Positions 20,551 to 32,091 of a stretch of DNA of 39,225 nt are shown here, piece after piece. The notes under the pieces are model-generated. The model saw only the letters and a program-made list of their open reading frames with translations. It was not told the DNA's origin and did no database searches. The stretch is from Calditrichota bacterium (GTDB lineage Bacteria; Calditrichota; Calditrichia; Calditrichales; J004), in NCBI GenBank assembly GCA_024277115.1, contig JAJRVW010000089.1, forward strand, positions 1 to 39,225. The letters are read 5' to 3'. Positions within the stretch are counted from its first letter, which is position 1, and every line of letters begins with the position of its first letter. Made by a program: the position numbers and the translations under genes.

Positions 20551-21105
20551 ATGCTTAAACGAATTTTTCTTTCGGACAAGGAAATTGTACGGCGTGTAAA
20601 AGCCAACGACCGTTCCATTTTAGGCGAGCTTTATGTTACAAACGAGCGCATGATTGCAGGCTATATAAAAAATCACGGTGGCGGGAAATCCGATATTCAG
20701 GATTTATTACAGGAGGCGATCATCGTTTTGTGGCAAAATATTAATGCCGGCCGCTTCGAGGTAAAATCTAAAATAAGCACCTATCTTTTTGCCATCGCCA
20801 AAAACAAATGGATGGCCGAAATGCGCCGCCGGAAAAAACTGGAGTACGATAGCGCCGAGCTGGAGAACAAAACGGATGGGAACGATTCGTTGGAAAAAAT
20901 CATTGAGGATGAACAGAAGAATAGAATTGCAAATGCCCTGGAAGGTTTAAAACCGCCTTGCAAGGAACTGCTTTTATTATTCTATTTTGAGGAAAGGTCA
21001 ATGGACGACATTGCAAATACATTGAATTTTGCCAACGGCAATGTGGCCAAAGCCAAAAAATATCAATGCAAGAAGGCATTGGAAACATTGATAAAAAAGA
21101 GATAG
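20551..21105 (+). CDS. ECF-type RNA polymerase sigma factor
   Basis: A 184-residue sigma-70 family protein with region 2 at about residues 20-90 (DIQDLLQEAIIVLWQNI, then STYLFAIAKNKWMAEMRRRKK) and region 4 at about 125-180 (LKPPCKELLLLFYFEERSMDDIANTL, an HTH). It lacks regions 1 and 3, as ECF factors do. The start follows AAAGGT at suitable spacing. Downstream, after a RAYT transposase gene, lies a gene for a single-TM protein with the look of an anti-sigma factor, so the pair was probably once adjacent. The divergent VIT-VWA gene shares the 130-base spacer and is a plausible target. The signal is unknown. Confidence 0.93.
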   Translation: MLKRIFLSDKEIVRRVKANDRSILGELYVTNERMIAGYIKNHGGGKSDIQDLLQEAIIVLWQNINAGRFEVKSKISTYLFAIAKNKWMAEMRRRKKLEYDSAELENKTDGNDSLEKIIEDEQKNRIANALEGLKPPCKELLLLFYFEERSMDDIANTLNFANGNVAKAKKYQCKKALETLIKKR

Positions 21106-21126
21106 AACATGGCTATGGTTCGGTCG

Positions 21127-21190
21127 CGGGTGGTAGAGACGCAGTTGGTGGTAGAGACGCGATTAATCGCGTCTCTACAGAACAAGGTGG
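21127..21190. repeat. REP-like palindromic unit, copy A (upstream of RAYT)
   Basis: A half site GTAGAGACGC (from 21133) is followed 18 bases later by a perfect 28-base palindrome, GTAGAGACGCGATTAATC-based, at 21151-21178, then GAACAAGGTGG. The arrangement of half site, full palindrome and trailing GGTGG is repeated at 21516-21579. Palindromes of this type are typical targets or partners of RAYT (Y1) transposases, whose gene begins just after. Confidence 0.85.
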
Positions 21191-21199
21191 AACACATAT

Positions 21200-21814
21200 A
21201 TGGGTTTATTTAAAAATACATACAGGGTTGAAACAACACGGTTAAAATATTGGGATTATTCCAATCCGGGCCTTTATTTTATTACAATTTGCACCAATCT
21301 CCATTCTTGTGATTTTGGTGAAATTAGAAATGCCCAGATGGTTTTAAATGAACATGGTAAAACTGTCGGTGAAATTTGGAAATTAATCCCAACTAAGTTT
21401 GAGAATGTAGTTTTAGATGAATTTATCGTTATGCCAAATCATGTTCATGGGATTATAATTATCACCCAAATGGATTCGGTTGGGGATAAAAATACAATTG
21501 GTGATGCAGACACGTGCGGTGGTAGAGACGCGGGTGGTGGTAGAGACGCGATTAATCGCGTCTCTACGGAACGGGGTGGCATAACCGGCGAAAAAAATCC
21601 AATGCTCTCAAACCATTCTATAGGTAAAATTATACGCTGGTACAAAGGACGTTCTACCTTTGAAATTCACAAAAACATAAATCCAGATTTTAAATGGCAA
21701 TCACGTTTCTACGACCATATTATCCGGAATGAAAAATCATATTTAAAAATAAAAGAATATATTCGCTACAACCCCAACAAATGGGAAGATGACAGATATT
21801 ATGAACATCAATAA
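21200..21814 (+). CDS. REP-associated tyrosine transposase (RAYT, Y1_Tnp family)
   Basis: A 204-residue single-strand DNA transposase of the Y1 HUH class. The divalent-metal HUH motif is MPNHVHGIIII at about residues 78-88, and the catalytic tyrosine is expected in YLKIKEYIRYNP near the C-terminus. The conserved start (RLKYWDYSNPGLYFITICT) and WQSRFYDHIIRNEKSY are intact, so the protein looks functional. Between HUH and tyrosine parts there is a low-complexity loop, CGGRDAGGGRDAINRVS, which is the translation of a REP-like palindrome. It lies between the sigma gene and the putative anti-sigma gene, and its end overlaps the latter's start. This placement suggests an insertion into a sigma/anti-sigma operon. 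Confidence 0.92.
   Translation: MGLFKNTYRVETTRLKYWDYSNPGLYFITICTNLHSCDFGEIRNAQMVLNEHGKTVGEIWKLIPTKFENVVLDEFIVMPNHVHGIIIITQMDSVGDKNTIGDADTCGGRDAGGGRDAINRVSTERGGITGEKNPMLSNHSIGKIIRWYKGRSTFEIHKNINPDFKWQSRFYDHIIRNEKSYLKIKEYIRYNPNKWEDDRYYEHQ
21516..21579. repeat. REP-like palindromic unit, copy B (inside the RAYT gene)
   Basis: A half site GTAGAGACGCG at 21522 and a perfect 28-base palindrome at 21540-21567 repeat copy A with the same 18-base offset and the same trailing GGTGG. It lies within the transposase coding sequence in frame, adding about 20 residues to a loop without disrupting the domain. Confidence 0.88.
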
Positions 21815-22814
21815 AAATAACAGCAATGAATTTGCTGAAAAATATATTTTGAACCAGCTTAATGCAGATGAAAAAACCGCCTACGAATCTTTTCTGGAAG
21901 AAAACGAACAGGCGCGAAAAGAATTAGAAGAAACCCGTGCCCTAATTAATGGCCTGCGTACAGTTGGCGCCGATGCCATGCGCCGAGAAATTGAACAACA
22001 GGTAGAGGAAATAAAATCCCCAAAAACAGATTGGTTTTTATTATATAAGGCCGCGGCTATTTTATTTATTTTTGTACTTGTGCCAGCTATACTCTACTTC
22101 CAGCTTTATGAAATAAAAGATGACATTGCCTCTATAGAACAATTTGTACCGCAGGAATTCAATGAAATTAAAGAAACCGAAAACGAGAAAGAACAACCCG
22201 CCAAAGCACCTGAGGCAATTTTTAACGAGAAACTTGCTCTGACTGTACAAAAAAATCAAACAAAAAAAGCACGCAGTAAATCACCAAAAATTGAAATAAG
22301 TACGCCAGCTGCAAATCAACAAAGAAAAAAAAGGACCATGGGTGATAATATTGCAAGGAAAAAAGACCAAGATTTATTAGAAGATGATTTGGAAAATTTG
22401 GACTATATGTCGGACATAACTTTAAGTGCATCATCGGGACCGGCGCTAAGACTCAGTAAGTCGTCCGGCACAGAAGAAAGTAGCATAACAAATTATATGA
22501 TTGAATCACCACCGACTGTTAGCCATATTTTTAAGCACGATAATCAAAGTGTTCAATTTCAGTTTCATAAAAACAGTGAGACAAATATTTTTCCCGACTC
22601 TTTTGCCGTAAAAATATACACACATTCAAAAAACACCCTTTTATTGACATGCGATGTTCCCAAGGCAATTTTTATTCTGGATAGAAAAGATATTTCACTC
22701 AAATGGCATAAAGAAAAAACAATCCAACTTGTTTTAGCGGATAGTAATTTTTATGAAATAACATTGGGTGGTAAAAAAACACAGGCCAGTAAAATCACTT
22801 CCTTGTCTAAGTAA
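21789..22814 (+). CDS. Putative membrane anti-sigma factor
   Basis: A 341-residue protein with an N-terminal cytoplasmic helical region (FAEKYILNQLNADEKTAYES, then EENEQARKELEETRAL) resembling the sigma-binding part of anti-sigma factors. One TM helix follows at about residues 84-104 (AAAILFIFVLVPAILYF), then a long charged linker and a beta-rich C-terminal domain outside the membrane. There is no zinc-binding HXXXCXXC motif. The function is inferred mainly from this layout and from the ECF sigma gene upstream. The gene overlaps the end of the RAYT gene. ATG at 21801 is an alternative start and may be the original one; neither has a strong ribosome-binding site. It could equally be a membrane protein unrelated to the sigma factor. 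Confidence 0.7.
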   Translation: MTDIMNINKNNSNEFAEKYILNQLNADEKTAYESFLEENEQARKELEETRALINGLRTVGADAMRREIEQQVEEIKSPKTDWFLLYKAAAILFIFVLVPAILYFQLYEIKDDIASIEQFVPQEFNEIKETENEKEQPAKAPEAIFNEKLALTVQKNQTKKARSKSPKIEISTPAANQQRKKRTMGDNIARKKDQDLLEDDLENLDYMSDITLSASSGPALRLSKSSGTEESSITNYMIESPPTVSHIFKHDNQSVQFQFHKNSETNIFPDSFAVKIYTHSKNTLLLTCDVPKAIFILDRKDISLKWHKEKTIQLVLADSNFYEITLGGKKTQASKITSLSK

Positions 22815-30992: not shown

Positions 30993-31505
30993 ATGAAGTT
31001 AATTACTTTACTGAGTATTTTATCTCTTTCTTTTCTTATTGCCTGTGGTGGCGGAGAAAAGAAAGCAGAGCAAGAAGCTGCAAAACCAGCAAACCCGAAT
31101 GGCCTTACCGATTTTGAAATGGAACATGGTATCGGGCCGGTAAAAGAGGAACTACAACTTGGCGCAATTGACCCGGCCAAAGTAGCTGCCGGAGAGAAAA
31201 CCTTTAAATCTTTATGTGCGCCTTGCCATAAACTGGACAAACGCCTTGTTGGCCCTGCACAGCGTTATACCGCAGACCGCCGTTCACCGGAATTTATTTT
31301 AAATATGATTATGAACCCGGATGAAATGACTAAAAGACACCCAACAGGCAAGAAATTACTGGCTGAGTACTTGGCGCCGATGAGCAACCAAAACCTTACT
31401 TTAGATCAGGCAAAAGAAGTTTTGGACTATTTACGTTCGGTGGCAAAAGAAGGGCATGAAAAAAATATTGAAGCTGCACCAATTTTTAGTGGACAGCAAA
31501 AATAA
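30993..31505 (+). CDS. Lipoprotein monoheme cytochrome c of the nos cluster
   Basis: A 170-residue exported lipoprotein: lipobox LIACG with C18, a linker, then a small class I cytochrome c domain. Haem c attaches at CAPCH (C75, C78, H79), and M130 in LAPMSNQNLT is the likely distal ligand. A helix LTLDQAKEVLDYLRS completes the fold. Position as first gene before the Rrf2 regulator and nosZ makes it the likely electron donor to nitrous oxide reductase; many clade II clusters encode such small cytochromes. AAGGAG precedes the ATG. A strong terminator directly follows, so it may be made in excess of the downstream genes. Confidence 0.92.
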   Translation: MKLITLLSILSLSFLIACGGGEKKAEQEAAKPANPNGLTDFEMEHGIGPVKEELQLGAIDPAKVAAGEKTFKSLCAPCHKLDKRLVGPAQRYTADRRSPEFILNMIMNPDEMTKRHPTGKKLLAEYLAPMSNQNLTLDQAKEVLDYLRSVAKEGHEKNIEAAPIFSGQQK

Positions 31506-31536
31506 CCCGACAGTTTAGTAACATTTTTTTAGATCA

Positions 31537-31567
31537 AAGCCATGGATTTTTCCATGGCTTTTTTTTT
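31537..31567 (+). terminator. Strong rho-independent terminator after the cytochrome gene
   Basis: AAGCCATGGA-TTTT-TCCATGGCTT is a perfect ten-base stem followed by a run of nine T. It separates the cytochrome gene from the Rrf2 gene, which must have its own promoter or depend on readthrough. Confidence 0.93.
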
Positions 31568-31653
31568 GTGAAAAAAATCTTTTTTTGTTTATTATTTAAT
31601 TTCTTAGCCGTATATTAAGACATCAGACTCTTCTATCTTTAGAAAATAAAAAA

Positions 31654-32091
31654 ATGTTATTATCAAAATCTTGTATATATGGCGTTCGGGCAACTATTTA
31701 TCTTGCTATGCATCAGAACAGGCAATATGTTCCTATTAAGGAGGTTGCCAAAACACTAAATATCTCTTTCCATTTTTTAACTAAAATCTTGCAGGTACTT
31801 ACCAAAGCAGGGATGATAAAATCGACTAAGGGGCCCAATGGCGGGGTGGCCTTATTAACATCGCCGTCCGATTTGACTGTTTATAATATTGTTTATGCCT
31901 TGGATGGAAGTGAATTATTTGATGAATGTGTGCTTGGGCTTCCTGGCTGCTCCGATGACAATCCCTGCCCTTTGCACAGGATATGGCGTGTCACAAAAGA
32001 AGAACTAAGAAATGAACTAAAAAGTGAATCCCTTCAGGATTTGGCCGACCAAATCTTGGATGGAACAATTCGACTATATGATGTAAATTAA
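31654..32091 (+). CDS. Rrf2-family regulator with a three-cysteine cluster motif (NsrR/IscR-like)
   Basis: A 145-residue winged-helix regulator. The N-terminus SKSCIYGVRATIYLAMH and the recognition helix VAKTLNISFHFLTKILQVLTKAGMI, followed by the wing KGPNGGVAL, are typical Rrf2. C92, C99 and C105 (spacing X6 and X5) fit a ligand set for an iron-sulfur cluster, as in NsrR and IscR, where spacings vary by species. In this context a nitric oxide- or redox-sensing role controlling nos genes is likely, but the exact signal is inference. It is flanked by terminator hairpins on both sides, so it may be expressed on its own and autoregulated. Direct repeats TTTTAACCAA (32097, 32117) just downstream are possible sites for it. 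Confidence 0.9.
   Translation: MLLSKSCIYGVRATIYLAMHQNRQYVPIKEVAKTLNISFHFLTKILQVLTKAGMIKSTKGPNGGVALLTSPSDLTVYNIVYALDGSELFDECVLGLPGCSDDNPCPLHRIWRVTKEELRNELKSESLQDLADQILDGTIRLYDVN

Follow-up and report, generated by a model that had tools for sequence, protein, structure and literature searches.

How does the gene for a transposase come to carry, within its own reading frame, a copy of the repeat on which its family acts, and what keeps that copy in place? This question is raised by a locus of a Calditrichota bacterium, which we analyzed on a stretch of 39,225 nucleotides (contig JAJRVW010000089.1 of assembly GCA_024277115.1, here called the window). RAYTs of subclass 2.4 (= RAYT group 4; Bertels et al., 2017) are known to be associated with "double foot" REPs, with 5' GT[AG]G and 3' C[TC]AC (Quentin et al., 2018; PMC6006769). 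According to the same study, members of this subclass have the motifs NH[IFV]H, WQ, and YIxNNP, no conserved domain after the core, an insertion between beta3 and alpha-C that varies in length and sequence, and an in-frame REP in the part of the tnpA-REP gene that lies between HuH and Y (PMC6006769). The RAYT in the window adds one more case to this phenomenon already reported by Quentin et al.

Organization of the RAYT locus

The features of the locus are as follows.

20551..21105, plus strand: ECF-type sigma factor gene, the upstream partner of the interrupted operon
21129..21190, plus strand: upstream 62-nt unit (half-site, palindrome, tail GGTGG)
21132..21143, plus strand: upstream half-site, 18 nt before the upstream palindrome
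21151..21178, no strand: upstream REP, perfect 28-nt palindrome GTAGAGACGCGATTAATCGCGTCTCTAC, ending 21 nt 5' of the RAYT start codon
21200..21814, plus strand: RAYT / TnpA-REP gene, 204 aa, Y1 HUH endonuclease of the RAYT group 4 (TnpA_Y1 subclass 2.4) type
21431..21448, plus strand: codons of the HUH motif MPNHVH, residues 78-83, in invariant columns of 19 RAYTs
21482..21607, plus strand: variable linker from the HUH strand to helix alpha-C, residues about 95-136, predicted disordered (pLDDT < 50)
21518..21579, plus strand: internal 62-nt unit (half-site, palindrome, tail), inside the RAYT gene
21521..21532, plus strand: internal half-site, consisting of the left arm alone, 18 nt 5' of the palindrome
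21540..21567, no strand: internal in-frame double-foot REP, perfect 28-nt palindrome GTAGAGACGCGATTAATCGCGTCTCTAC, inside the RAYT gene
21758..21760, plus strand: codon of the catalytic tyrosine, Y187 in YIRYNP, in an invariant column of 19 RAYTs
21801..22814, plus strand: gene for a putative anti-sigma factor, overlapping the RAYT stop codon with its start at 21801 (21789 is the listed start of the ORF)

The RAYT gene sits exactly between the ECF sigma factor gene and the putative anti-sigma factor gene (20551-22814), overlapping the start of the latter. The putative anti-sigma function of the downstream product is suggested by its position beside the sigma factor gene and by its sequence character.

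Both palindromes (21151-21178 and 21540-21567) are perfect 14+14 nt inverted repeats, identical to each other, and both have the GTAG...CTAC ends of a double-foot REP. Exactly 18 nt 5' of each lies a half-site, GGTAGAGACGC(A/G), and identity between the two 62-nt units is 92%. The internal unit reads in frame as GGRDAGGGRDAINRVST, leaving an unbroken ORF of 204 aa, and its REP falls between the codons of H83 (HUH) and Y187 (the catalytic Tyr). The initial annotation had described the same half-site and palindrome, at the same offset, both before and inside a RAYT gene that stays full length, with the gene's cognate REP lying in frame within it; this description is confirmed. The internal palindrome encodes GRDAINRVST, and just 8 of the 663,552 synonymous codings of this peptide form the palindrome. 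This count, together with the synonymous shuffling of 95 RAYTs described below, rules out that the internal palindrome arose by chance. As RNA, the internal unit forms a 12-bp hairpin, and, compared with shuffles, the surrounding sequence has a moderately better fold (z -2.45). In the upstream unit, over 21129-21178, the half-site can replace the left arm of the palindrome as the pairing partner of the right arm, making two competing hairpins possible just 5' of the RAYT start codon. A literature search with the bare sequence GTAGAGACG gave no match on bacterial repeats among the papers listed.

In anatomy and class, the window gene is almost certainly a RAYT of group 4 / subclass 2.4 with an in-frame internal REP. 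Its product matches Pfam Y1_Tnp just over the cut-off and the NCBIfam family REP_Tyr_transpos (REP-associated tyrosine transposase) with E 7e-12, yet under the curated cut-off. E. coli TnpA-REP (4ER8) is the sole solved relative found by a profile of 19 relatives, and also the best fold match of an AlphaFold model of the window RAYT. In this model the core is confident, and pLDDT falls below 50 in residues 95-136 of the protein (98-139 in the numbering of the modelled chain), a segment that includes GRDAINRVST. E. coli TnpA-REP, a member of subclass 2.2, shares the HUH/Tyr fold with the window RAYT, but its chain is shorter (165 aa) and has no long linker from HUH to W, and the REPs that belong to it form bulged hairpins (PMC8266576).

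The agreement with subclass 2.4 extends over the motifs NHVH, WQ, and YIRYNP, the last of which is one position off YIxNNP; the end of the protein 12 residues past YIRYNP, with no conserved domain or C-terminal extension after the core; the variable HUH-to-W insertion; and the GTAG..CTAC REP that both flanks the gene and lies in frame inside it, between HuH and Y. While the essentials are thus the same, the window locus is set apart by its YIRYNP, by the half-site before each palindrome, by its nine genomic copies, and by a REP on the upstream side only, none being found downstream because the end of the gene overlaps the next gene. A near-identical multicopy element with subterminal hairpins, as in IS200/IS605 insertion sequences, is not what the genome shows: it has one intact RAYT and one distant frameshifted relic.

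Other known repeats are less close. Di Nocera et al. (2013; PMC3733652) described GTAG REPs, REPtrons, and REPs within other genes. REPtrons resemble the window locus in having a GTAG-tagged palindrome adjoining a RAYT gene, but the window REP is tagged at both ends, has a low copy number, and lies inside the RAYT gene itself, whereas the REPs of REPtrons only flank or overlap the ends of the RAYT gene (PMC3733652). Rickettsial palindromic elements, which the same article cites, are likewise palindromic repeats translated in frame in proteins; they occur in many unrelated genes, while the host gene in the window is a transposase whose family acts on the repeat (PMC3733652).

Internal palindromes recur in the linker of related RAYTs

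Related RAYTs were drawn from 98 genomes and from a scan of genome contigs with alignment A1. Palindromes were scored as arm length less two for each mismatch and called strong at a score >= 10 with a loop <= 8. Such a palindrome was found in the linker of 65 of 95 intact RAYTs, a share of 68% that may be inflated and is not a census, since 80 loci were ranked or chosen by their likeness to the window RAYT. Elsewhere in the coding sequence there were four, and synonymous codon shuffles placed a palindrome in the linker of a mean of 1.6 of the 95 (range 0-7). The initial annotation had asked for a comparison of homologues, in which an ordinary loop with no palindrome would have spoken against its proposal; the loop proved to be palindromic in most. 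The carriers span about a dozen phyla, and linker length among the 95 relatives varies from 15 to 116 aa. Some of the 30 relatives (30/95) that do not have a strong palindrome have weaker or long-loop ones, such as L056 (arms of 18 nt, separated by 37 nt) and L061 (arms of 15 nt, separated by 39 nt), where an insertion within the linker has split the arms. Because these 30 do without a strong palindrome, the internal palindrome is not essential.

The foot lies in codon phase 0 (n=32) or phase 1 (n=19) and never in phase 2 (n=0), because GTAG in that phase would be an in-frame TAG stop. The two phases yield unrelated peptides, for example VETRLIASLQ and GRDAINRVST.

The linker also shows other kinds of change. 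Stems extended 8-11 bp past the GTAG foot into unique gene sequence occur in 3 of 42 internal palindromes, compared with about 0.001 expected; in L161, L097, L100, and L184, the stems run about 8-11 bp past the foot into gene-specific sequence. Half-sites are frequent, as are in-frame tandem expansions of the linker. In the linkers of L181 and L182, units of about 7-9 aa resembling AVGRDGG / AVGRDDGDG are repeated in frame and in tandem beside the internal palindrome, and their number differs between species at a syntenic locus.

Retention and compensatory change of the internal hairpin

A congener of the window species (G001) has a RAYT at the same junction, between the ECF sigma factor gene and its neighbor. 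The two RAYT proteins are 68% identical and the downstream genes 36%. The inner palindrome is identical at 28/28 nt, compared with 57% identity for codons outside the palindrome. For this first RAYT pair alone, the signal from codon identity inside the palindrome is weak (P about 0.003), and the shared palindrome is weak evidence of retention because other copies in the genome could convert it.

The retention argument is instead carried by a second RAYT pair, for which other copies are absent. This second RAYT lies between a transporter gene and hypB; it is frameshifted in the genome of the window (G000; L169, contig C20, about 31000-31700, internal palindrome GAACGCAGGGGCGTATTGCAATACGCCCCTGCGTTC), intact in G001, and missing from this locus in G002. 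Its palindrome is the sole copy in each genome (G000 and G001) at <= 3 mismatches. The palindrome core is identical at 24/24 positions between the two, while the rest of the linker is hardly alignable. The foot has changed on both sides, from GTAG..CTAC to GCAG..CTGC, which is one compensatory change. In a second genus, the inner hairpins of two RAYT genes that are 95.4% identical (L173 and L174) show one wobble and two compensatory double changes, one from G:C to C:G and one from T:A to G:C, and the encoded amino acids are altered. In the inner hairpins, it is the pairing that is kept and not the peptide. Conservation at the level of the peptide was ruled out by the two codon phases and by these amino-acid-changing pairs. 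Overall, long-term retention of the hairpin is very likely, and a part of its perfection may be mutational rather than selected.

Cognate copies and foot classes

A genome-wide count of the palindrome, as the initial annotation had proposed, gave nine copies at <= 3 mismatches in 5 Mb of the window genome, and none for a reversed control pattern. All five exact or near copies that were checked outside the window locus are intergenic. In general, GTAG REP families have many genomic copies, most of them intergenic. Among the 65 carriers, 25 have a near-identical palindrome <= 1.2 kb outside the gene, compared with 2.4 expected for the palindromes of other RAYTs.

The palindromes fall into foot classes, GTAGAGAC, GTAGGGAC, or GTAGGGGC. 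On the RAYT tree, foot class changes 8 times, compared with a shuffled mean of 15.1 and a minimum of 10 (500 shuffles), but across phyla it agrees in only 34/44 cases versus 28.6 expected. With all pairs pooled, the center of the palindrome tracks the enzyme (Mantel r 0.21, 0/5000 permutations). Covariation of center and enzyme between nearest relatives across phyla is unsupported, with 2 shared versus 1.6 expected; as the center is no more shared across phyla than expected, the sequence of the palindrome turns over.

Palindromes of this kind are few per genome, with a median of 3.5 across 40 genomes. A single strict palindrome was found in 11 genomes, in three of which (G105, G117, and G118) it is not the internal copy, so that five to eight are counted as having the internal copy alone. 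In five (G109, G110, G130, G131, and G134), the internal RAYT copy is the sole palindrome found with a relaxed pattern too, G134 adding one non-palindromic chance match, though draft genomes may hide further copies.

Arrival of RAYT units at operon junctions

The RAYT of the window is absent in G002, G005, G011, G014, and G018, where the sigma factor gene and the downstream genes are adjacent or overlapping. At the second locus, the transporter and hypB genes of G002 are 15 nt apart, with the RAYT absent. These empty junctions in sister genomes indicate that both RAYTs arrived as compact units at gene junctions within operons, leaving their neighbors unbroken.

L173 and L174 (1447-2144) are near-identical RAYT units of about 700 bp at unrelated loci of two congeners, with only about 41 bp upstream and the gene in common and with unrelated flanks. 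This sharing also suggests that what moved was a compact unit of about 700 bp, and the two units look recently moved. A hairpin, GATCTTTTTCAT / ATGAAAAAGGTC, lies just 5' of the gene, within the shared unit. Quentin et al. (2018) found no evidence for mobility of these class 2 genes (PMC6006769); given that statement, the apparent movement deserves a closer look.

The direction of copying at the window locus can be read from the tail of the upstream unit. The same GGTGG stretch stands 3' of the inner palindrome in both the window species and the congener G001. Inside the gene it encodes the conserved GG of RGGITGE / QGGITGE, and upstream of the gene it is missing in G001. By this comparison, the upstream unit of the window was probably copied outwards from inside the gene.

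Discussion

The best explanation overall, and one we consider likely, is that the window contains a group-4 RAYT gene that permanently holds its own cognate double-foot REP in a disordered linker. Being shared with a congener and recurrent in relatives, the hairpin is old and inherited rather than a fresh, tolerated insertion. During replication, when its DNA is single-stranded, the palindrome would fold into a hairpin, and it would do so in the mRNA as well. Template switching, a process described for hairpins in PMC8794818 and PMC3820800, may help to keep both arms perfect. The enzyme, whose relatives bind and cut GTAG-hairpins, could bind its own gene or mRNA at the palindrome. The internal copy might then act as a self-recognition or regulatory site and, when the gene enters a new genome, as a portable source of cognate REP.

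Whether the hairpin is selected is a separate matter. A REP may have entered the linker of an ancestral RAYT as a passenger, tolerated by the loop and maintained by template switching that keeps its arms perfect, with no function needed. We give this account a serious chance, somewhat short of even. It resembles the view of Quentin et al. (2018), who considered the loop peripheral and of little impact on activity (PMC6006769), and it fits a loop that is predicted to be disordered as well as peripheral. The 3/42 stems that are extended 8-11 bp past the foot are what template switching would produce, and the frequent half-sites and in-frame tandem expansions are also in its favor. Taken alone, however, it fails to account for a palindrome that keeps the cognate foot class of the enzyme's clade, or for the prevalence of palindromes at the linker site where the genome has no REP family.

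A selected self-binding role for the internal hairpin is, on our analysis, quite possible, if doubtful. In its fuller form, which we advance tentatively, the internal REP would be a selected cis-element, recognized by the enzyme in its own DNA or mRNA (for autoregulation or a preference for its own gene) and carried along by the gene to seed a new REP family. The sequences are compatible with an internal REP that marks or regulates its own DNA or mRNA, as the initial annotation had suggested. Of its two alternatives, that the element keeps a copy was rightly offered, while insertion followed by tolerance does not stand as a recent event.

A recent insertion of a genomic REP into the window RAYT, tolerated by chance, is very improbable. 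In its favor, the genome has identical copies at other sites, and REPs are known to have inserted into genes (PMC3733652). Against it, the orthologous locus of G001 has the same internal palindrome, the linker is palindromic in most relatives too, and some genomes have no copy other than the internal one. With nine copies in 5 Mb, a random strike on one linker of about 130 nt would also be unlikely. Equally hard to sustain is the idea that the encoded peptide matters, as a conserved loop serving, for example, REP recognition, with the palindrome incidental: the loop is always translated in frame, but its two codon phases give unrelated peptides, compensatory changes alter its amino acids, the palindrome is improbable under synonymous shuffling, and the loop is modelled as disordered.

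Our survey adds to the known phenomenon that it is widespread, that it is located in one protein loop, and that the hairpin is kept perfect over long evolutionary times. The compensatory changes are an unusual natural case in which pairing is kept over peptide within a coding sequence. The hairpin could be removed by synonymous recoding with the protein untouched, which gives simple experimental access. RAYTs and REPs stay associated in bacterial genomes over long periods, which raises the question of what ties enzyme and repeats together. Should the gene contain the substrate of its own product, maintained as a hairpin, the link would be physical, and enzyme and site would move and evolve as one. 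If the internal REP is indeed a selected cis-element, a RAYT and its cognate site would be one heritable unit.
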